A DNA stretch of 64,000 nt from a bacterium. GTDB taxonomy: Bacteria > Sysuimicrobiota > Sysuimicrobiia > Sysuimicrobiales > Segetimicrobiaceae. Made by a program: the position numbers and the translations under genes. Positions 944-12,628 of the stretch are shown piece after piece; position 1 is the stretch's first letter; every line of letters begins with the position of its first letter. Under the pieces are notes generated by a model. That model was not told the origin of the DNA. It saw only the letters and a program-made list of their open reading frames with translations, and made no database searches. The stretch covers positions 1-64,000 of the forward strand of contig DATGHU010000034.1 of NCBI GenBank assembly GCA_035307765.1, in the 5' to 3' direction.

Positions 944-1781
944 GTGGTCGTTAAGTACGTCAGCAAACGGTTCCGCGACATCGCCCGCGGCGCCGACGTT
1001 CACGCCCTCGACGACCTGTCCTGCGCAATCGCCGATCGGGAGTTCGCGGCGATCTTGGGCCCGAGCCAGTGCGGGAAATCGACCCTCCTGAACATCGTCG
1101 CGGGCTTCGAAGCATCGAGCCGGGGTGCGGTCCTCCTCGACGGGAGACCGGTCATGCGGCCCGGGTCGGATCGGGGCGTCGTCTTCCAAGAGTACGCACT
1201 CTTCCCCTGGCTGTCGGTCGCACAGAATCTCGAGTTCGGGCTGCGCCACCAACCGCTGGATAGCGGCCAGCGCCGCCGGCGCGTGCGGCAGTACGTCGAG
1301 CTCGTAGGGCTGCGGGGGTTCGAACACGCTTCCCCAAAGAATCTCGGGCGGGATGAGACAACGGGTGGCCCTGTCGCGCGCCCTGGCGGGCGATCCTGAG
1401 GTATTGCTCCTCGACGAACCCCTCGCCGCCCTGGACGCTCTGACGCGGCAATTGTTGCAGCGGGAACTGCTGGACATCTGGACGACCACACCCAAAACTG
1501 TGCTGCTGGTGACCCACAGCATCGACGAAGCCTTGACCCTCGCGGACCGATTGTACGTCATGTCGGGGCGCCCCGGGAGGATCCTGGATGCGATCGAGAT
1601 CGCGCTTCCCCGACCGCGCGATCTCGCCTCGCCGGATGCAAGCGCCCTGCGGGGACGGGTGAATCACCTGATCGAACAGGAGGTCAGGCGGGCGTTCGAG
1701 GACCGGGTGTCGGCGGGGGACCGTCCCCGGGATGCGGAAGAAGCACCAATGCCCAAAGCAGATCGGCCTCGCTCACCGTGA
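944..1781 (+). pseudogene. ABC ATPase, nitrate/sulfonate/taurine type, frameshifted
   Basis: This resembles SsuB/TauB/NrtD ATPases that energise uptake of sulfonates, taurine or nitrate at the inner membrane. The first frame (GTG 944, preceded by a GGGGGGGGAGG ribosome-binding site) carries Walker A GPSQCGKST and the Q-loop VFQEYALFPW. The signature [15 protein letters not shown], Walker [14 protein letters not shown] and H-loop VTHSIDEAL lie in the +1 frame from about 1341. The shift falls in the CCCC/AAA runs at 1332-1338, where removing one base joins the two frames in register. The tail overlaps the convergent ppx gene by 98 bp, suggesting a lost stop. No permease or binding protein is adjacent. 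It is either a pseudogene or an assembly error. Confidence 0.75.
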
Positions 1782-2688
1782 TGCCGGGAGCCCCCAACCG
1801 TGCCAGAAGGGACTGGAGGACCAGCGCCCCCGCCACGATGATGTCCGCGCGCTCGGGTTGAAGCCCGGCAAGACCCTGCCGTGCCGCCAGGGGGAGACCG
1901 AGCATCATGCTCGTGATCCGATCCACCGCCCGGCGGGTCAACCGGAAGCCGTGGACCCGGCCGGGGTCATACGGGGTCAGGCGCTGCTCGATCGCCGCCA
2001 TCGTGGTGATGGTCCCGCCAACGCCGAACACCCGCTGCGGCGGGCGGGCGATGCCCGCAAAGAATGGGTCCAGCGTCTGGACGACGGTCTCGAGAAGCGA
2101 CGCCGTTTCGCCTTCACACGGCGGGTCGTGCGACAGGAACCGCTCCGTGAGCACGACGGCCCCGATCGGCAAGCTGCAACTCCCCTCGATCCGGGTGCTG
2201 TTTCCCACCGTCAGTTCGACGCTGCCGCCGCCGATGTCCACCACGAGAAGCCGCGCGGATCGGCCGGGCTTCCCGATTCCCGCGAGCACACCCTGATAGC
2301 CCAACCGAGCCTCTTCGTCACCGCTCAACGTCCTGATTGGCAGGGTGAGCCGTGCAAGCAGTTCGTCCGGGTTGCTCGCGGTGCGGAACGCGTGGGTGGC
2401 CACGACGATGGGGGATTCCGCCCCGGATGCGGTGGCCAGCGCGACGAACTCCTCCACGGCGGCCGCGGTGCGCGCGGCAGCCCGGGGGAGGATCAAACCG
2501 GTCCCCCTGAGCCCCTCCCCCAATCGGGTGATCGTCAGCCGGCGCAGCACGGGAGTGGGAACCAGCGAAGGTCCCGGCCGACGGGACCGCCCGCGGGCAG
2601 GCGGGAGAAAGGGGAGCGGATCCGGCACATCCGCAATCAACAACCGCACCGAGTTGGTGCCGATGTCGATCGCCGCCTGCCGAGACAC
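1684..2688 (-). CDS. ppx: Exopolyphosphatase / pppGpp phosphatase (Ppx/GppA)
   Basis: A cytoplasmic ASKHA-fold phosphatase of 334 residues, the short form of the family that hydrolyses polyphosphate and/or the gamma-phosphate of pppGpp. Diagnostic motifs are the phosphate-1 loop [15 protein letters not shown] at the N-terminus, phosphate-2 [14 protein letters not shown] near residue 145, and [13 protein letters not shown] near 220. [13 protein letters not shown] follows near 280. Translation starts at GTG 2688. The C-terminus has a proline-rich tail that overlaps the damaged ABC ATPase. Whether the substrate is polyphosphate or pppGpp cannot be told from sequence alone. It stands alone, with 383 bp of non-coding sequence upstream. 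Confidence 0.9.
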
Positions 2689-3071: not shown

Positions 3072-3296
3072 TCAAAATAGGCGCAGCAGCCTGCTCAGCC
3101 GCTCGCGCAGCTCCGCGGGAGCCTGCTCGCCGCTGCACGAACGACGGACGATGGCCCTCAGGCGCTGCTCAAACTCTACCTTGGAGAAACAGTGCCGACA
3201 CTCCTCGAGATGCCGCTGAAGCTCGCTGGAGGACTCTCCGTCAAGTTCCCGGTCGAGGTACTGCCAAAGCTTCTCCAACGCCTCTTCGCAGTTCAT
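3072..3296 (-). CDS. Zinc-binding anti-sigma factor (RsrA-like)
   Basis: A 74-residue soluble anti-sigma factor with the ZAS signature: Cys3, His29, Cys33 and Cys36 (HLEECRHC). In RsrA-type proteins these residues bind zinc and release the sigma factor upon thiol oxidation. It has no membrane segment, so it senses a cytoplasmic signal. The ATG overlaps the sigma stop codon (ATGA, 3293-3296), so the two proteins are translationally coupled and probably made in equal amounts. The redox-sensing role is inferred from family and small size; it could also be a mycothiol/bacillithiol-system anti-sigma. Confidence 0.85.
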   Translation of the reverse strand: MNCEEALEKLWQYLDRELDGESSSELQRHLEECRHCFSKVEFEQRLRAIVRRSCSGEQAPAELRERLSRLLRLF

Positions 3297-3838
3297 TTGG
3301 GGTCTCCCTTAACAAGATGCCGATCCCGCACAAAATCCCACAACCGTCGCTGAAGCATGTGCCGGCCTCGGGAGAGCCTGGACATCACCGTGCCGAGCGG
3401 GACCCCAAGGATCTCCGCGATCTCCTTGTAGCTAAACCCCTCGACGTCGGCCAGGATGATCGCCGCGCGAAACGGCATCGGGAGGGCTTCGAGGCTCTCG
3501 CGGACTTCCGCGTCCATGATCCCGTCCAGCACCTGCACCTCAGGATCCCCAGCCCCGCCCAGGGTCTCCCGCTCGCGCGCCCTGTCGTAGAGGTAAAAGT
3601 CACCGACATCCTCGTGATCGACCACTTCCGGTTCCCGCGTCCGTTTCCGGTAGGCGTCGAAATGAGCGTTCATCAGGATGCGGTGGAGCCACGCCCGGGC
3701 GCTGGTCCCCTCTTGGAAAGTGTGGAAGGATCGCCACGCCCTGAGCATGACCTCCTGAACGAGATCCTCGGCGGCGGTCCGATTGCGCGTCAGCCGAAGC
3801 GCCGACCGATACAGACCGTCCAGATGCTCGGTGATCAC
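3293..3838 (-). CDS. ECF RNA polymerase sigma factor, SigR/RpoE type
   Basis: Region 2 is seen as LYRSALRLTRNRTAAEDLVQE followed by RAWLHRILMN; region 4 as EGFSYKEIAEILGVPLGTVMSRL, the helix-turn-helix that reads the -35 element. Length is 181 residues from GTG 3838. The frame stays open upstream through REALRARFEP, which matches the N-terminus of SigR-like sigmas, but no standard start codon or well placed ribosome-binding site is seen there, so the true start may lie about 10-20 codons earlier at an unusual codon. It is paired with the ZAS anti-sigma factor by a 4-nt overlap. The likely regulon is disulfide/oxidative stress, by family. Confidence 0.88.
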   Translation of the reverse strand: MITEHLDGLYRSALRLTRNRTAAEDLVQEVMLRAWRSFHTFQEGTSARAWLHRILMNAHFDAYRKRTREPEVVDHEDVGDFYLYDRARERETLGGAGDPEVQVLDGIMDAEVRESLEALPMPFRAAIILADVEGFSYKEIAEILGVPLGTVMSRLSRGRHMLQRRLWDFVRDRHLVKGDPK

Positions 3839-4010: not shown

Positions 4011-4039
4011 AAGAAAAACGGCACCCCGCTCGGGGTGCC
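4011..4039 (-). terminator. Intrinsic terminator of the cysteine operon
   Basis: Inverted repeat with arms 4020-4028 and 4031-4039 (GGCACCCCG and its complement). On the minus strand it is followed by GTTTTTCTTT, a good U-tract. It lies about 35 nt past the Rrf2 stop codon and closes the cysO-to-rrf2 transcript. Confidence 0.85.
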
Positions 4040-4072: not shown

Positions 4073-4501
4073 TCAGGGTTTTCCGAGCGGGACCAGCGCC
4101 GGGCGAATGATATCGGTGAGGGTAATGCGGTTCAGCACTTGCTCGGTGGCCTCCTTGACCGCCTGCCACACGGGGCGCAACCCGCACCCGGGCGCGTAGA
4201 TGCAGGAGGTCTCTGTCTCTTCGACGCACAGCCAGGGGGCGACGCTCCCTTCGAGGACGACAAAGGCCTCCCCCACGGTGATGCGATCCGGCGATCGAGC
4301 AAGGAGGTGGCCGCCGCTGGGGCCGCGCTTGCTCAGCACGAGGCCGGCCCGGCGGAGGGTGACCAGCAGCTGGTTGAGGTAGGGCTCGGGTAAGCCTTGC
4401 CGTCGGGCGATGTCATGGCTCTGCACGGGACCCTCGCCGTAGTGCTGGGCCAGGTCCATCAGCGCTCGGATTCCATACTCCGCCCGGGTGCTCACCTTCA
4501 T
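4073..4501 (-). CDS. Rrf2-family regulator (IscR/CymR-like)
   Basis: This 142-residue protein has the Rrf2 winged helix (MKVSTRAEYGIRALMDLA, then HDIARRQGLPEPYLNQLL as the recognition helix region). It keeps three cysteines, Cys92, Cys100 and Cys106, in the position used by IscR and NsrR to hold an Fe-S cluster. It is the last gene of the cysteine operon and its ATG overlaps the JAMM peptidase stop (ATGA, 4498-4501). By context it probably represses the operon in response to cysteine or Fe-S status. CymR, which regulates cysteine genes in Bacillus and lacks a cluster, is the functional analogue; IscR is the structural one. Which signal it senses is open. Confidence 0.9.
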   Translation of the reverse strand: MKVSTRAEYGIRALMDLAQHYGEGPVQSHDIARRQGLPEPYLNQLLVTLRRAGLVLSKRGPSGGHLLARSPDRITVGEAFVVLEGSVAPWLCVEETETSCIYAPGCGLRPVWQAVKEATEQVLNRITLTDIIRPALVPLGKP

Positions 4502-4920
4502 GAAACCACCACTTCCTCCTCCGTAAACGCCCCTCCCGCGATCCGGAAAGCCCTCACCTGCGGCTGCGTCGAGTCGCGGAGCGACACAATCACGTACCGG
4601 GCATCGGGGAATAGCGGCGTACCCTCCCCATCGACCGCACGCTCCCTGTCAGTCCGACTCGGATACGCCTCCGTGTGGGGATGTGAATGATAAATCCCCA
4701 CCAAATCCCAGCCCCGCTCGTCTATAGTCCGGAAGGCGCGGATCTGATCCTCCGGGTCCATCAGGTAGGTCTTTGGACTTCGATCGGTGTTGCGACCGGG
4801 AAAGACTTCCTCGACCACCTCCCCCAGGCCCGCCAGCATCCCGCAACACTCGTTGGGAGCTTCCGCCCGGGCCTGGGCGATGATCCGGGCCAGTTGGTCC
4901 TGTGTGATCCTCAAGGCCAC
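4498..4920 (-). CDS. mec: JAMM/M67 zinc peptidase (Mec+-like)
   Basis: A Mov34/MPN-type metallopeptidase of 140 residues. The JAMM residues are all present: Glu24 (PNECCGML), His78 and His80 (GIYHSHPH), Ser88 and Asp91. In mycobacteria Mec+ cuts cysteine from the CysO-cysteine adduct; in the QbsD and HcyD relatives the enzyme trims the carrier protein to expose its Gly-Gly end. Here the neighbouring CysO ends six residues beyond Gly-Gly, so both activities may be needed. It sits 56 bp after cysM and overlaps the Rrf2 gene by 4 nt. The assignment is strong from fold and context; the exact substrate is inferred. Confidence 0.92.
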   Translation of the reverse strand: MALRITQDQLARIIAQARAEAPNECCGMLAGLGEVVEEVFPGRNTDRSPKTYLMDPEDQIRAFRTIDERGWDLVGIYHSHPHTEAYPSRTDRERAVDGEGTPLFPDARYVIVSLRDSTQPQVRAFRIAGGAFTEEEVVVS

Positions 4921-4976
4921 CGCCGGACCTCCTCACGCGTATTCTAGCCCAATCGCGGAGCAAAAGGAAACCCCCC

Positions 4977-5960
4977 TCAGCCCCTCCCGGACGGCGGTGC
5001 GCTGAGATCCCGCCAGAGAGGCGTGCTCAGATACCGACCGCCGCCATCGGGGGCGATGACGACGACCACCCCCGCCCGTATCCCCGCCGCCGCCTCAAGG
5101 GCTGCGCAGACGGCCGCACCGGTCGACGCCCCCACGAACATCCCTTCCTCCCGCGCCAACCGCCGCGCCATGGCGTACCCCGCCTCCGTCGACACCCCGA
5201 CCTTGCGGTCGTGCGCGGAAGGATCGTAGATCCCCGGGACGATCGAGCTGGCGATGTGCTTCAGCCCTTCAAGCCCGTGCAGCGGGCCGTCGGGCTCCAC
5301 GGCAAGAATCTGGATCCGCCGGTCGGCCTCGCGCAGCCGTCGACCCGCGCCCACGAGGGTGCCCGTCGTGCCGAGCCCGGCGACGAAGTGGGTGATCCGC
5401 CCCCCGGTCTGGTCGAGAATTTCCCGGCCGGTGGTCTCGTAGTGCGCCCGCCAGTTGTCGGGGTTGTTGTACTGGTCGGGTTTAAAGTACCGCTCGGGAG
5501 CCTCCTCGAGGCGCTGCCGCGCCAAGCGGATCGCGCCGTCGCTGCCTTCCAGCGGATCGGACAGCACGATCCGGGCCCCGTAGGCGGCGATGATCCGCTT
5601 GCGCTCCTCGCTTGCGCTCGCCGGCATCACCAGCTCGACCGAGTATCCCTTGATCGCTCCGATCATCGCATAGGCAATCCCCGCGTTCCCGGAGGTTGAA
5701 TCCAGAATGGTCTTGTCGCGGGTGAGGCGCCCGTCCCGTTCGGCTTCGGCGATCATCCGCAGCACCGGCCGGTCCTTGATCGAGCCGCCCGGATTGAACC
5801 ACTCGGCCTTGAGGTGCACCTCGACGGACGACGGCAGTCCCCGCGTCACTCGGGCCAGGCGCAGCAGCGGCGTGTGCCCGATCCGGCCGAGCAGCGACCG
5901 GTCGAGGTCCGCGCGGACGGGGGGAAGGTCACTCGTCGAAGAGATAGGTCGGCTCCGCAT
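4977..5960 (-). CDS. cysM: PLP-dependent O-phosphoserine sulfhydrylase (CysM-like)
   Basis: A fold-type II PLP enzyme of 327 residues that replaces the side-chain leaving group of an activated serine with sulfide. The Schiff-base lysine is Lys62 in NPGGSIKDRP; the substrate loop is STSGNAGIAYA and the phosphate-cradle is GLGTTGTLVG. Length and motif style fit mycobacterial CysM (Rv1336), which uses O-phosphoserine and the thiocarboxylate of CysO. ATG 5960 was chosen because the homologous region begins about 20 residues later; it overlaps the upstream kinase gene by 32 nt. Context (CysO, Mec, serine kinase) favours O-phosphoserine over O-acetylserine. A plain cysteine or cystathionine synthase is the alternative. 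Confidence 0.88.
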   Translation of the reverse strand: MRSRPISSTSDLPPVRADLDRSLLGRIGHTPLLRLARVTRGLPSSVEVHLKAEWFNPGGSIKDRPVLRMIAEAERDGRLTRDKTILDSTSGNAGIAYAMIGAIKGYSVELVMPASASEERKRIIAAYGARIVLSDPLEGSDGAIRLARQRLEEAPERYFKPDQYNNPDNWRAHYETTGREILDQTGGRITHFVAGLGTTGTLVGAGRRLREADRRIQILAVEPDGPLHGLEGLKHIASSIVPGIYDPSAHDRKVGVSTEAGYAMARRLAREEGMFVGASTGAAVCAALEAAAGIRAGVVVVIAPDGGGRYLSTPLWRDLSAPPSGRG

Positions 5961-6798
5961 AGTACCGAACCCCGTGCTGCCGCCAGCGGTGTTCCACCGC
6001 GGCCTCCAGAGTTCGCTGTTTGGTGGCGGTGGTCTCCCCGCTCTCCAGCCACGCGAGGGGGGCGTTGAGGCGAAGGACCCGCCCGGGGATGACGTGCCGG
6101 GTGATCCCTGCGGGGAAGCCGCCGCCGCGCGCGGCGATGGCGAGGATCGCCTCTTTGGTGAGGGGGGGAAAGATGACGAGCGTCCCCGGCCCGTGCTCCG
6201 CGCGCCACGCTTCCGCATCCCCTCCGTCGACACGATAAATCTCGCAGCCGGGTTGATACGCGGCGACGAAATCGCGCAGCAGGGCCGCGTCGGGCGGAGG
6301 ACCGCCCCCTGGCCCGACGAGTGCGGCCCCCCGCCCGTCGACGATCGCCGCGAGGGCGGCGTGCTGTTCGAGCCGCGCCTCCGCCTCGCGGGCGGTGCGG
6401 ACGGGCGTGAGGCGAATTCCCGGTCGCGCGGCGATCCGACCGCGCAGGCCCGCGGCGCCTTCCCCGACCACATAATGCCGCCACGTCGACAAGATGATCG
6501 CGGGATCGGCGTAGTGAACGACCTGGGCGATCACGTGGCGGGCCCCGATCACCCGCAGCGCACTCACCCGGTTGGCGCCATCAAGAACGACGGCGGCTTC
6601 ATCGGGGCGCCCCCCGTGGGACAGCGGGGCCACCGCCGGGGGGTTACGGAGCACGCGATCCCGGCGGAAGGCCAGGACCAGTCCCTCGACGCGGGCGGGA
6701 TCGGCCTCCTCGTGCAGAAGGAGCCGGGAGGTCTCGAGCACGCGCAGCGCCGGAAGCCGCGTCGCCCGGAGATTCCGGGGGCGGACAAAGAGATTCAT
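5929..6798 (-). CDS. ParB/sulfiredoxin-fold serine kinase, SerK/SbnI-like
   Basis: A 289-residue protein with an N-terminal ParB-like domain: HEEADPARVEGL near residues 29-40, RNPPAV near 51, and VLDGANRVSALRVIGA near 71-86. Family members with this layout are SbnI of Staphylococcus and SerK of Thermococcus, which phosphorylate free serine to O-phosphoserine. The acidic pair at Glu30/Glu31 is where the catalytic glutamate would be expected. The C-terminal part (about residues 130-289) is not a DNA-binding ParB domain. ATG 6798 overlaps the cysO stop (ATGA), and cysM starts inside its 3' end. Placement between a sulfur carrier and an O-phosphoserine-type sulfhydrylase strongly suggests it supplies O-phosphoserine. 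A regulatory ParB-like role is the alternative. Confidence 0.78.
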   Translation of the reverse strand: MNLFVRPRNLRATRLPALRVLETSRLLLHEEADPARVEGLVLAFRRDRVLRNPPAVAPLSHGGRPDEAAVVLDGANRVSALRVIGARHVIAQVVHYADPAIILSTWRHYVVGEGAAGLRGRIAARPGIRLTPVRTAREAEARLEQHAALAAIVDGRGAALVGPGGGPPPDAALLRDFVAAYQPGCEIYRVDGGDAEAWRAEHGPGTLVIFPPLTKEAILAIAARGGGFPAGITRHVIPGRVLRLNAPLAWLESGETTATKQRTLEAAVEHRWRQHGVRYYAEPTYLFDE

Positions 6799-7085
6799 AG
6801 GAGGGTCAGCCCGCACCCCCCCGCCATCGCCGGGACGATCGAAATCTCGTCGCCTTCGCCGAGCGGGGTAGCGGGCCCGGCCAGCTGTCGCATCTCGATC
6901 CCGTTAACGAACACGTTGATGAACGGCCGGACCTCCCCGGTCGGCTCGCGAAGTTGCTCGCGCACCCCCGGAAATTGGCGCTCCAGCGCCAACAGCGCCT
7001 CCTCCACGGTCTGACCCGGGGCATTCACCCTCGCCTGCCCCGCGGTCAACCGGCGCAGCGGAGTCGGCAGATAGATCTGCGCCAT
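6795..7085 (-). CDS. cysO: Ubiquitin-like sulfur carrier CysO (ThiS/MoaD family)
   Basis: A 96-residue beta-grasp protein. The start ATG 7085 follows a GGAGGGGG ribosome-binding site. Family features are the PFINVFVNG strand, GEGDEISIVPAMAGG and the Gly89-Gly90 pair that is converted to a thiocarboxylate. Unlike mycobacterial CysO, which ends at Gly-Gly, this protein continues with Cys-Gly-Leu-Thr-Leu-Leu. Such tails occur in QbsE/HcyS-type carriers and must be removed by a JAMM peptidase before activation. It is the first gene of the operon. No E1-like MoeZ/ThiF activator is present in the window, so activation would depend on an unlinked enzyme. Confidence 0.9.
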   Translation of the reverse strand: MAQIYLPTPLRRLTAGQARVNAPGQTVEEALLALERQFPGVREQLREPTGEVRPFINVFVNGIEMRQLAGPATPLGEGDEISIVPAMAGGCGLTLL

Positions 7086-9281: not shown

Positions 9282-10232
9282 CTATCCCAGGGCGCCGACG
9301 GCGAACATCGGGTCGCCCGGGTTCGTGGCCGGCGTGGTCACGGTGAAGAGGACGACCCCTGCCCCCGGGGCCGTGATCTTCCCGAGCGCCCGTCCGAAAT
9401 AGTCACGGGTCTCCCCCACCACCTGCCCCTGCGCCACCTGATCTCCCGGCGCGACCGTCGGGTAGAACAGTCCCCGATGCTCCGACGTCACCCAGTGGAA
9501 CTTGGACAAGACCACTACCGGGGCCACGGGGTCGGGGGACCCTTCGACCATCCCGAGGTGCCGCAACACGTTTCGGAGTCCGCGGAGATGGACTTGGAGG
9601 GACTCGTCGTCGAGCCGCCCCTGACCCCCCGCCTCCGTCAGGATCGCCGGGATCTTGCGCTGTGCGGCCGCACCATAGGTGCCTCCCGACACCCTGCCGC
9701 GGACGACATACCGGATTCCGTACACGCGGGCCAGCGCGAGGGTTTGGGCATCGACCCCCGGGTCCCCCGTCTCGGCGAGGATCGTGAAGGGCACCAGCGC
9801 CTCATTGATGTCCCCCCCGTGCAGATCCACGAAGACGTCCGCACGGGAGATGACCTGGGTGAAAAGCGTGTGCGCCAAGCGCTCGCTGGCCGTCCCTTCG
9901 GGGTTGCCCGGGAAGACCCGGTTGGGGTTCTTGCCGTCGAGCGGGCAGATGTAGATGTTGCGCCCCTGAAAAGCCGGCACGTCGACGATGTGGACGACGA
10001 TCACCGACCCGTGCAGGGTCGCCGGCTCGAGCGCACCCGCGGTTCTGATCGCGGCCTCGATACCCGGATACTCGCCCCCGTGGACGCCCGCCGTGATGCT
10101 GAGCAGCGGCCCGGGCTGTGCCCCGCACGCCAGCGTGACCGGCATCTGGATCGGCGTCCCCGGAACCTCCAGCCATCCGGTCACCTTGGTCCCGGGCTCC
10201 GCCCGGAGCGAACCCACCTCGAGCGTCTTCAC
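9282..10232 (-). CDS. AstE/AspA-family zinc deacylase
   Basis: A 316-residue M14-like metalloenzyme of the succinylglutamate desuccinylase/aspartoacylase family, which hydrolyses N-acyl amino acids. The zinc site is GVHGGEYPGIEAA (His and Glu) and DLHGGDINE (second His). TEAGGQG is the region expected to hold the general base. The C-terminal part (APVVVLSKFHWV onward) is the beta-rich lid found in this family. GTG 10232 overlaps the lipB stop (GTGA), so it is translated from the same message as lipB. The acyl substrate cannot be inferred; other arginine succinyltransferase genes are absent. Confidence 0.85.
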   Translation of the reverse strand: MKTLEVGSLRAEPGTKVTGWLEVPGTPIQMPVTLACGAQPGPLLSITAGVHGGEYPGIEAAIRTAGALEPATLHGSVIVVHIVDVPAFQGRNIYICPLDGKNPNRVFPGNPEGTASERLAHTLFTQVISRADVFVDLHGGDINEALVPFTILAETGDPGVDAQTLALARVYGIRYVVRGRVSGGTYGAAAQRKIPAILTEAGGQGRLDDESLQVHLRGLRNVLRHLGMVEGSPDPVAPVVVLSKFHWVTSEHRGLFYPTVAPGDQVAQGQVVGETRDYFGRALGKITAPGAGVVLFTVTTPATNPGDPMFAVGALG

Positions 10233-11023
10233 CGCGTCCCCCCTTCATTGGCGATCTCCTGAGAGGTTCGTGCCGTCGCCGGTCCGATCCCCTCTCCCCA
10301 CCCCGACGACGCGGCCTCGCCGATCCTCGACCGAATCGACTCCACCGGCATCGGCGCAAACTCCACCGCCAGCAGCGCGCTGAGCGCTCGGACAACCGTC
10401 GGCGCGACCTCCTCCACCGACACCGGCCGCCCGAGCAGGCGGGCCATGCTCGTCACCGGCTTCCCCAACCCGCATGGATTGATGAGGGTAAAGTCGTCCA
10501 GGTGGGGAGCCACGTTTAGGGCAAACCCGTGCATCGTGACCTTGCGCTTGACGGCCACCCCGATCGCCGCGATCTTCGCCTCTCCCACCCACACACCCGG
10601 ATACCCCCGCAGGCGATGAGCGACGATGCCGTAGGTCCCCAGCGCGTTGATCAACGCGGCTTCCAGCAGGCGGATGTAGCGGACGACGTCTTCGTCGAGC
10701 GCGCGCAGGTTGAGGATGGGGTACCCGACCAGCTGGCCGGGCCCGTGATAGGTCACATCCCCTCCCCGCTCGATCTCGTAGACGTCGATCCCCCGCGCGG
10801 CCAGCAGCGAGCGCGACACAAGCACGTTTGCCGGCCGGCCGGCCCGCCCGATCGTGATCACGGGCGGGTGCTCGACGAGGATGAGAGTATCCTCGATTCG
10901 ATCCGCCTGGCGGGCGGCGACGAGCGCGCGCTGCAGCGCCCATGCCTCCCGGTACGAAAGGCGGCCGCAGCTGAGCAGCCATCCGGTCCGCACGTGGGGC
11001 CGCGTCAGCGCTTCCCCGGCCAC
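10229..11023 (-). CDS. lipB: Octanoyl-[acyl-carrier protein]:protein transferase
   Basis: LipB moves the octanoyl group from acyl carrier protein to lipoyl domains of 2-oxoacid dehydrogenases and GcvH, the first step of lipoate synthesis. Motifs are RGGDVTYHGPGQLVGYPI (substrate loop), GVWVGEAKIAAIGVAV containing the catalytic lysine, MHGFALNV, and LINPCGL with the acyl-thioester cysteine. At 264 residues it has a C-terminal tail slightly longer than usual. It overlaps the DUF4149 gene by 19 nt and the AstE-like gene by 4 nt. The E1 alpha/beta pair at 50-52 kb is a plausible part of a lipoate-dependent complex. Confidence 0.95.
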   Translation of the reverse strand: MAGEALTRPHVRTGWLLSCGRLSYREAWALQRALVAARQADRIEDTLILVEHPPVITIGRAGRPANVLVSRSLLAARGIDVYEIERGGDVTYHGPGQLVGYPILNLRALDEDVVRYIRLLEAALINALGTYGIVAHRLRGYPGVWVGEAKIAAIGVAVKRKVTMHGFALNVAPHLDDFTLINPCGLGKPVTSMARLLGRPVSVEEVAPTVVRALSALLAVEFAPMPVESIRSRIGEAASSGWGEGIGPATARTSQEIANEGGTR

Positions 11024-11460
11024 GCCTGGCCGGCCAGCAGCACCATCCCGCCGACAAGGACGATGAGCTCAAGTGCCGCGTAGGCGGCGTGCAGCTGGCG
11101 GATCGAGGCGTACCGCGGATCGACGGTGCGGTTGACGAAATCGAGCCCCTGCGCCAGGCGAGTGATCGCCGGGGCGAGGAACGCGCCCTGCACGGTCACG
11201 ATGGCCAGCATCAACGCGACGAGTCCGACCGCCCACCGGGGGGCGGCCGCGACCAGGGACGCGATCACGACAATCGCGCCGATGATCCACTCGGCCCAAA
11301 CCCATCGGGTGATGACCAGTTGCCCCAGCGCCACCGCCTGGTTTCGGGTGATGACCCCGCTGCCGAACCGCAGGGGCGCCTCAATAAAGTCTAAGGACAC
11401 CATCCCCCCGATCCAGACCGCCAACGCCAGCACCCGGATCACCGCCGCCCAGTTGGCCAT
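11005..11460 (-). CDS. DUF4149-type four-helix membrane protein
   Basis: A 151-residue integral membrane protein with four predicted helices: about residues 6-26 (AAVIRVLALAVWIGGMVSLD), 50-72, 74-95 and 125-145. The first helix carries the WxGG motif and the last LVGGMVLLAGQAW. Such proteins resemble DUF4149/TMEM205-like families of unknown function. It lies directly downstream of the FTR1 gene (12-bp gap) and upstream of lipB, so it is probably co-transcribed with the iron permease. No redox or metal ligand pattern is obvious beyond scattered histidine and tryptophan. Confidence 0.75.
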   Translation of the reverse strand: MANWAAVIRVLALAVWIGGMVSLDFIEAPLRFGSGVITRNQAVALGQLVITRWVWAEWIIGAIVVIASLVAAAPRWAVGLVALMLAIVTVQGAFLAPAITRLAQGLDFVNRTVDPRYASIRQLHAAYAALELIVLVGGMVLLAGQAWPGKR

Positions 11461-11472
11461 CGCCGTCTCACC

Positions 11473-12336
11473 TCAGCCCTTGGGGTGGGCCGGGGCGTCC
11501 GCCCGCCGCACGCCGTCCGTTCCCGGCCTGCCCGCCGGGACCGCCGGCGGCCGGACGTAGGACCATCCCACCACCGCGAGGTAGGCGAGGTACATCGCCA
11601 CCTGCAGCAGCGACGGCGTGCTGATGTACCCAAACACCGCCTGGAGCAGGCTCCCCAGCACCGAGGTTTCGGGTATCGCCGCGTGCATATCCCAGAGGTG
11701 GGCAACGAGCGGGGGCAGGATCGCCGCCTCTTGGAACTCCCCGACTCCGCGGGCGAGGAGGCCCGCTCCCACCAGCAGCAGCAACACGCTGGTTACGTTA
11801 AAGAAGGTGCGGAGGTCGAGGCGGCGGCTCCCGCGATAGATGAGCGCCCCCAACACCACCGCGCAGGCCAGCCCGAGGATGGCCCCGCTCAACGCGAGGA
11901 TCGGAGATGATGCCCGGACCGTCGCGAACAGGAACAGCGCTGTCTCGATTCCCTCCCGACCAACCGACACGACGGTGAGCGCCACGAGCGCCCCCCGCGA
12001 TCCGGTCCGAAGGGCATCGCCGAGGCGTGAGTGCAGCTCGCTGCGGATCGTCGCCGCCTGTCGGCGCATCCAGAACACCATGTACGTGAGGACGCCCACG
12101 GCGGTGATCATGGCCACGCCCTCGAACAGCTGCTCGGCGCGGCCTCGAAACTCCCCGGCCGTCACCAAAATGACCCCTCCGGCCAGCAGGCTGAGGGCCA
12201 CCGCGCCAGCCACGCCGGTCCAGATCGCGCCGAACTCTCGCCGCTTCCCCGTCCGGGCGAGAAAGGCCAAGATGATGCCCACGATAAGCGACATCTCCAG
12301 CCCCTCACGAAGTGCGATCAGGAAAGCGCTGAACAC
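11473..12336 (-). CDS. FTR1-family high-affinity iron permease
   Basis: A 287-residue, seven-helix membrane permease of the FTR1/EfeU type. Both REXXE iron-passage motifs are present: Arg10-Glu11-Gly-Leu-Glu14 in the first helix and Arg127-Glu128-Gly-Ile-Glu131 in the fourth. Translation starts at GTG 12336 with GGGAGG upstream, and the REGLE motif so close to the N-terminus fixes this start. The companion EfeO/EfeB lipoprotein and peroxidase are missing, so it may take up Fe(III) or Fe(II) with unlinked partners. The promoter region carries a DtxR/IdeR-like sequence (see that entry), suggesting iron repression. Confidence 0.92.
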   Translation of the reverse strand: MFSAFLIALREGLEMSLIVGIILAFLARTGKRREFGAIWTGVAGAVALSLLAGGVILVTAGEFRGRAEQLFEGVAMITAVGVLTYMVFWMRRQAATIRSELHSRLGDALRTGSRGALVALTVVSVGREGIETALFLFATVRASSPILALSGAILGLACAVVLGALIYRGSRRLDLRTFFNVTSVLLLLVGAGLLARGVGEFQEAAILPPLVAHLWDMHAAIPETSVLGSLLQAVFGYISTPSLLQVAMYLAYLAVVGWSYVRPPAVPAGRPGTDGVRRADAPAHPKG

Positions 12337-12360
12337 CGACTTTCGACCTCCCTTGGATCG

Positions 12361-12389
12361 ATTATATTGTTAAGTTAGCCAATCAACAA
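12361..12389 (-). promoter_or_regulatory. ftr1 promoter with possible DtxR/IdeR-like operator
   Basis: On the minus strand TTGTTG (12384-12389) is 17 bp from a perfect TATAAT (12361-12366), leaving a leader of about 18 nt. The plus strand over the spacer reads TTAAGTTAGCC, close to one half of the IdeR iron box TTAGGTTAGCC. The outer edges TTGTT/AACAA are symmetric. Confidence 0.6.
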
Positions 12390-12628
12390 TCCCTGCCCGA
12401 GTGAGGGTAGCCCAACCCGCGCGGAGTGTCAAGAAACGGCTCAGGTTTCATCACGCGAACCGGCACCGGCTGACCTCGCTCCGTTTCCCGCCCCTACCAA
12501 ACGTTGAGCGGCGGCGGGCCCTGATCCGGTTCCCGCCCCGGCGGGAAGAAGAGCGGTCTCCGTGCGCGCCGCCCCTTCTCGCCACCGTCGGCGGGCGATC
12601 TCCCGAGAAGCCGCCGAGCAGAGCCCGC

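Follow-up and report, generated by a model that had tools for sequence, protein, structure and literature searches.

In the first 64,000 nucleotides (nt) of contig C34 (GenBank DATGHU010000034.1) of a bacterium of the order Sysuimicrobiales, a stretch hereafter called the window, we identified a five-gene operon on the minus strand (positions 7085-4073). It probably serves the synthesis of cysteine on the sulfur carrier CysO, from phosphoserine that a ParB-fold protein encoded in the same operon would make from free L-serine. The genome concerned (G000) is 3.82 Mb in size and 96% complete. The operon starts with cysO (6795..7085, start ATG), encoding a ubiquitin-fold sulfur carrier, followed by a serK-like gene (5929..6798, start ATG) for the ParB-fold protein, a probable free-serine kinase of a DGANR subfamily with Glu30 kept, and by cysM (4977..5960, the ATG start being our choice) for a pyridoxal phosphate (PLP)-dependent cysteine synthase. 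The last two genes are mec (4498..4920, start GTG), encoding a JAMM metallopeptidase with an HSHP...S..D motif, and rrf2 (4073..4501, start ATG), encoding an Rrf2/IscR/CymR-type regulator with a C-x7-C-x5-C motif. Four of the proteins were recognized by Pfam models, namely ThiS for the carrier (46.7 bits, cut-off 22.5), PALP for CysM (235 bits), Prok-JAB for Mec (89.2 bits) and Rrf2 (128.1 bits), and G+C at the third codon position is 0.74-0.86 across all five genes. Just past rrf2, a hairpin scan detected an intrinsic-terminator-like hairpin that closes the operon (4020..4039, read as 4039-4020 on the minus strand, with the tail GTTTTTCTTT); terminator-like sites numbered 5 in the region against 1.4 expected in shuffles, and no sigma-70-like promoter was found in the region scanned for promoters and terminators. 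The existence of the five-gene operon is confirmed: an earlier sequence-only reading of this DNA had claimed the five genes together, and all are present on the minus strand with the terminator-like hairpin after them. Its description of the genes as coupled holds for three of the four junctions, with overlaps of 4 nt (cysO/serK-like), 32 nt (serK-like/cysM) and 4 nt (mec/rrf2), but cysM and mec are separated by a gap of 56 nt, the only junction without an overlap.

The kinase step of the proposed pathway depends on the ParB-fold protein, for which no Pfam match was found up to an E value of 0.1. Its AlphaFold2 model, built from a 38-row alignment, has a predicted local distance difference test (pLDDT) score of 90.7 and a predicted template modelling (pTM) score of 0.88. 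Structure comparison of this model showed that the two-domain SerK/SbnI fold is matched over the full length of the protein: the nine best matches in the Protein Data Bank (PDB) are SerK, SbnI or the P. furiosus homologue, all at Z 20.5-22.4 and covering 224-242 residues, and the next ones, ParB, Noc and sulfiredoxin, reach Z <8 over about 75-100 residues. Glu30 of the window protein, the counterpart in alignment of the 'HE' Glu of SbnI and SerK, is present in all 40 filled rows of an alignment comprising 39 sequences of the order, including that of the window, and L069 (genome G048) from outside the order, the 41st row being a gap. It is also present in 62/62 relatives outside the order, L069 being counted here too, and the PDB titles of the SerK mutants E30A and E30Q name residue 30. 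The sequence-only reading, which had placed the protein with the serine-kinase type and had named a missing catalytic Glu as an objection, is supported to the extent that the protein resembles SerK and SbnI in structure over its full length and has kept this Glu. The model suggests that the ParB-fold protein is probably a free-L-serine kinase, and its family forms a subfamily of its own within the SerK/SbnI kind, outside both named families. Lys215 was also considered as a shared catalytic residue; it is invariant in the 38-sequence alignment A1 and mostly replaced outside the order, and no claim is made for it.

It is quite improbable that the ParB-fold protein, instead of being a metabolic kinase, regulates the operon in a nucleotide-dependent manner. 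Such a role would be in keeping with the bifunctional naming of SbnI in NCBIfam, as regulator and as O-phosphoserine synthase, and with the description of ParB and Noc as CTP switches in PMC12704722. However, kinases were matched over the whole protein, Glu30 is kept in both alignments, and the operon already contains an Rrf2 regulator.

The gene cluster was examined in 43 genomes of the window's order, and 343 other genomes were sampled for the kinase gene, which was found in 39 of the former and 6 of the latter. In two genomes where the kinase was not found (G024 and G034), operon-type CysM is truncated at a contig end, and the kinase gene may be off the contig. When neighbours <700 bp apart are counted as clustered, all five genes form one cluster in 24 of the 39 kinase-bearing genomes, and several other loci end at contig breaks; the conserved cysO-serK-cysM-mec order that had been proposed as a check is thus present. 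The complete order cysO-serK-cysM-mec-rrf2 was observed in 16 loci including the window, and L051 has the same order except for a probably spurious extra CysO call. Seven further loci have an extra CysM-family gene, of the length of cystathionine beta-synthase (CBS), between cysO and serK, which in L046 was identified as CBS; in this locus mec-rrf2 lies 3.5 kb away. The gene cluster is far beyond chance, since its arrangement is repeated across Sysuimicrobiales genomes with kinases of 38-61% identity. In L046, a cystathionine gamma-synthase/lyase-type gene and the CBS gene, at 11383-12534 (-) and 9557-10978 (-), flank cysO, so that one cluster there holds transsulfuration genes as well as the CysO route. 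Weak extra CysO matches in L046, L051, L057, L063 and L066 are apparent shadow frames and were discounted. Second serK copies, interrupted or fragmentary, lie near a CBS-like gene in the genus g9 (G037:C141:17085-17768 and G035:C293:5799-6287).

In the proposed pathway CysM would take phosphoserine as its substrate. The substrate loop of CysM has Lys in H-G-L-E-G-L-K, where two CysK-type enzymes, 2egu and the genome's own CysK, have Gln and Glu, respectively. A basic residue occupies this position in 33/33 operon-type cysM open reading frames (ORFs; Arg in L045, and Lys in 20/20 of one set), but E. coli CysM also has Arg there, and the residue does not by itself establish the substrate. The TIGR01138 model of cysM was missed (349.5 bits, cut-off 394.2). 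CysE was found over cut-off in just 1 of the 43 genomes of the order (G041) versus 8 of 14 controls, in agreement with the earlier proposal that cysteine would be made without O-acetylserine. Sub-cut-off hexapeptide matches to CysE occur in 38 further genomes (the best with 47.9 of 210.65 bits and part of the model covered), and a very divergent CysE may exist in the order. If acetylserine is lacking, CysM must draw on a different activated form of serine, and the kinase gene is located directly upstream of cysM.

The carrier of the window ends in ...PAMAGG-CGLTLL, that is, six residues past Gly-Gly. Within the order, 28 carriers have E <1e-40; 25 of them run 1-25 residues beyond PAMAGG and three stop at Gly-Gly, and the tails have little in common except among close relatives. 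No tail follows Gly-Gly in the CysO-like chains 3dwg_C and 4n6e_B. Since the last glycine is where the thiocarboxylate is made, a tail beyond Gly-Gly would need removal. The carrier is therefore probably made as a precursor, and, by analogy, the JAMM peptidase of the operon would be the obvious candidate for removing the tail. An example is provided by QbsE/QbsD of thioquinolobactin synthesis, in which a carrier is made with extra residues past Gly-Gly that are removed by a JAMM protein; QbsE serves secondary metabolism, not cysteine synthesis, and its tail is short and fixed, whereas the tails described here are variable and belong to a cysteine operon. The JAMM motif is present in 36/36 Mec matches. 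Of 41 loci (L014, L031-L069 and the window), 38 have Mec by a profile rebuilt without L054; outside the order this profile matched one ORF (L217). 'Mec' matches within CBS genes outside the order were rejected as artefacts, the first Mec profile having probably included the CysM-Mec ORF of L054. In that locus, a single open frame at 10958-11842 (+) appears to carry the CysM end and a Mec domain, as a fusion or a frameshift.

CysO and the JAMM peptidase might instead serve another task, such as SAMP-like protein modification or molybdopterin synthesis, with CysM using free sulfide. The carrier scored 58.1 bits with SAMP1 (cut-off 60) and the peptidase 95 bits with desampylase (cut-off 130). Nevertheless, the best solved-structure match of this ThiS/MoaD-fold carrier is the carrier of 3dwg/3dwm (E 4.7e-15), which was solved with cysteine synthase B and which we take to be mycobacterial CysO. 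Moreover, most loci of the order have the carrier gene grouped with serK and cysM, and a separate task of this kind is very improbable.

The proposed route, in which CysO-borne cysteine is built from kinase-made phosphoserine, would begin with the trimming of the pro-CysO tail to Gly-Gly by the JAMM peptidase. A rhodanese-domain E1 enzyme encoded elsewhere would then convert the CysO end to a thiocarboxylate, and the SerK-like kinase would turn serine into O-phosphoserine. CysM would join the CysO thiocarboxylate and O-phosphoserine to give CysO-cysteine, from which the JAMM peptidase would free cysteine, while Rrf2, and perhaps also a SigR-RsrA-type pair encoded beyond the operon, might couple expression to the thiol or Fe-S state. 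This pathway is likely given the observed genes, their order and conservation, the fold, the catalytic Glu and the near absence of CysE, from which we infer every reaction, the trimming of the tail being the most conjectural of them.

Mycobacteria, by means of the CysO carrier, and a few archaea, among them one that has SerK, are known to make cysteine from phosphoserine. The mycobacterial CysO-CysM-Mec system with MoeZ, as described in PMC3227635, shares with the window operon a CysO carrier, a PLP enzyme that takes O-phosphoserine in mycobacteria, a cysteine-releasing protease and a separate MoeB-rhodanese E1. In contrast to that system, the window operon has a SerK-like kinase between cysO and cysM and ends in an rrf2 gene, and its carrier is tailed past Gly-Gly. 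The archaeal SerK of Thermococcus has the full-length fold and Glu30 in common with the window protein, which is 17-20% identical to it, contains DGANR, and is bacterial and encoded inside a CysO/CysM operon. According to a 2016 study (PMC5120207), the route proposed for Thermococcus runs from serine via phosphoserine to cysteine, T. kodakarensis SerK is not in an operon, and no clear bacterial SerK homologues were found. SbnI of Staphylococcus (PDB 5uje, 5ujd and 6nr6), named an O-phosphoserine synthase, likewise shares the fold and the Glu. However, the window protein is 19-24% identical to SbnI and has Asn where SbnI has His in DG..R, and SbnI serves siderophore synthesis, whereas the window protein sits in a cysteine operon.

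Besides the order, relatives of the kinase were sought more widely. A single-sequence scan of contigs found none, and an alignment scan that used LDGANR and one further motif pattern matched 149, of which 80 were used (23 of the order and 57 from outside). The outside set of 62 relatives, which is thus a truncated one, consists of these 57, L069 and four more. A TrpB2 gene lies on the same strand within 139 bp of the kinase gene in nine of the 62 (L069 (G048), L105, L113, L115-L117, L121, L131 and L215 (G362)); TrpB2 was tested against TIGR01415 in L113, L117, L069 and L215 and was assigned by a profile of our own in the other five. This adjacency occurs at three places of the kinase tree, two of which are forced by well-supported branches, and the six betaproteobacterial cases form one clade. 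TrpB2 enzymes have been reported to be O-phosphoserine dependent (PMC11917138, citing Busch 2014). A CBS gene is directly upstream of the kinase gene in 7/62, at two places of the tree, and in L120 (Anaerolineae) serK, cysO, a SUF-associated gene, cysM and a MoeB-rhodanese E1 gene stand in a row. Past serK-trpB2 of L215, the same strand carries genes for DAHP synthase and prephenate dehydrogenase. These associations lead us to a wider proposal, held tentatively and rated close to an even call, that DGANR kinases are a portable phosphoserine supply for fold-type-II PLP enzymes, namely CysM/CysO in CSP1-3, TrpB2 in Betaproteobacteria and others, and CBS in Anaerolineae. In this proposal, CSP1-3 would make cysteine from free serine, perhaps derived from glycine, without acetylserine, on a precursor carrier matured by the JAMM peptidase that also releases the product.

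It should be noted that a number of observations weigh against the proposed pathway, beginning with the kinase itself. The NCBIfam models of SbnI (66.5 bits, cut-off 350) and archaeal SerK (41.1 bits, cut-off 380) matched the ParB-fold protein below cut-off, and on these scores it is not an SbnI or archaeal-SerK equivalog. Where SbnI and SerK have DGxHR, 40/40 alignment rows read DGANR, with Asn in place of His; N76 is found in 60 of the 62 outside relatives, most of that set having been found with patterns including LDGANR. In PMC12704722, a SerK-like archaeal protein is reported to bind CTP, not ATP. Outside the order, 44/62 relatives have neither the above partners nor serC-serA within 700 bp. 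Of 54 kinase-bearing genomes tested there, 17 have CysE over cut-off, among them that of L120 with its serK-cysO-cysM genes, so that outside the order the kinase is not simply a substitute for CysE. Although serC-serA lies just upstream of a distant kinase relative in L214 (G310), the protein of that locus has the His motif form and a very long branch and thus supports the wider kind over the DGANR subfamily; for this reason both the proposed pathway and the portable-supply proposal were rated slightly lower. In L148, a threonine synthase gene (over cut-off) is 145 bp away from the kinase gene. Together with the CBS and cystathionine gamma-synthase/lyase-type genes around cysO in L046, it would agree with a kinase that has a different small-molecule substrate, for example homoserine or threonine. 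Nonetheless, the homoserine kinase ThrB is over cut-off in 40/43 genomes of the order and the TrpB2 and cysM neighbours favour serine, which leaves this alternative extremely improbable.

Within the order, four loci of the genus g9 have serK-mec-rrf2 with no cysM or cysO adjoining, and a CysM search of those genomes found no operon-type CysM except for one 98-residue piece at a contig end (G037); these loci count against a strict form of the pathway. Two genomes, G013 and G020 (97% complete), have no kinase, operon-type CysM or CysE over cut-off, and hence yet another cysteine route exists in the order. A second cysteine synthase (CysK) is over cut-off on contig C31 of the window's genome. The only ThiF-family protein of this genome over the Pfam cut-off, a protein of 400 amino acids with a rhodanese domain, is encoded on another contig (G000:C11:81180); it reached the MoeB subfamily PRK05690 and missed the MoeB and MoeZ equivalog cut-offs. 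ThiF-family proteins are over cut-off in 38/43 genomes of the order, with a gene within about 15 kb of the kinase gene or cysM in G038, G030, G012, G021 and G024. Since the predicted CysO-activating protein is encoded on another contig, the operon is not self-contained, contrary to the sequence-only reading.

Phosphoserine could also come from 3-phosphoglycerate. SerA, the phosphoglycerate dehydrogenase, is over cut-off in 26/43 genomes of the order, including that of the window, where serA is directly preceded by a class V aminotransferase gene whose best match, BhcA, stays below cut-off. Because SerA and an aminotransferase gene are present in the genome, phosphoserine without the kinase is possible. 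CysM might accordingly be fed mainly by this route, with the kinase salvaging serine or returning it to 3-phosphoglycerate, as proposed for Thermococcus by Makino et al., whose article (PMC5120207) discusses this use of serine. On the other hand, cysO, cysM or mec adjoins the kinase gene in every examined locus of the order, and serC_1 and SerB are over cut-off in 0/43 genomes, although among 14 controls these models passed in just 4 and 7, and both tasks can be performed by other enzymes. We regard this explanation as unlikely, and the supply of CysM by the kinase of its own operon is preferred.

A need for such a kinase may lie in the origin of serine. The candidate phylum CSP1-3, to which the window's order is taken to belong, has been named Sysuimicrobiota, and core genes of the reductive glycine pathway were reported in 102 of its genomes (PMC11604079). 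Hypothetically, serine derived from glycine would be unphosphorylated and would require such a kinase. The carrier pathway and a SerK-like kinase are here found in one operon, conserved in an order that is nearly without CysE by its model. If true, the pathway would fill the cysteine step for CSP1-3, give a testable function to a ParB-fold family without a Pfam match, and point to a general pattern in which kinases that make phosphoserine accompany phosphate-eliminating PLP enzymes. A literature search covering titles and abstract starts, with subscription journals mostly uncovered, found no description of a serK-cysO-cysM operon. Also new are the carrier tail past Gly-Gly, whose presence implies maturation, and the SigR-RsrA-type pair after the operon, neither of which the sequence-only reading mentions.

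Further examination of the surrounding region revealed features related to regulation. In Rrf2, three spaced cysteines are present in 35/35 proteins. Beyond the terminator, the minus strand carries a conserved gene for an extracytoplasmic function (ECF) sigma factor (3293..3838; best NCBIfam match SigH_actino, 187.4 bits, cut-off 251.55) and a gene for an RsrA-type zinc anti-sigma factor with HxxxCxxC (3072..3296; NCBIfam TIGR03988, 88.7 bits, cut-off 62.5). Past rrf2 and on the same strand, the ECF sigma gene was found in 32 and the anti-sigma gene in 34 of 35 loci of the order, and HxxxCxxC is kept in 35/35 anti-sigma matches. RsrA-type pairs sense thiol oxidation in actinobacteria, and by analogy a SigR-RsrA-type pair would suit a cysteine operon. 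An Rfam search of the window at gathering thresholds, in which an RNA leader was sought, returned only a tRNA at 749-822. A G+C-rich hairpin with a T-rich tail (7137-7113, minus strand), 27 nt upstream of the cysO start, is a candidate for the terminator of the upstream gene or for an attenuator. In addition, a Ppx/GppA-like exopolyphosphatase gene (below cut-off; 1684-2688, minus strand) comes after the sigma/anti-sigma genes, and is found on the same strand in 18/35 loci.

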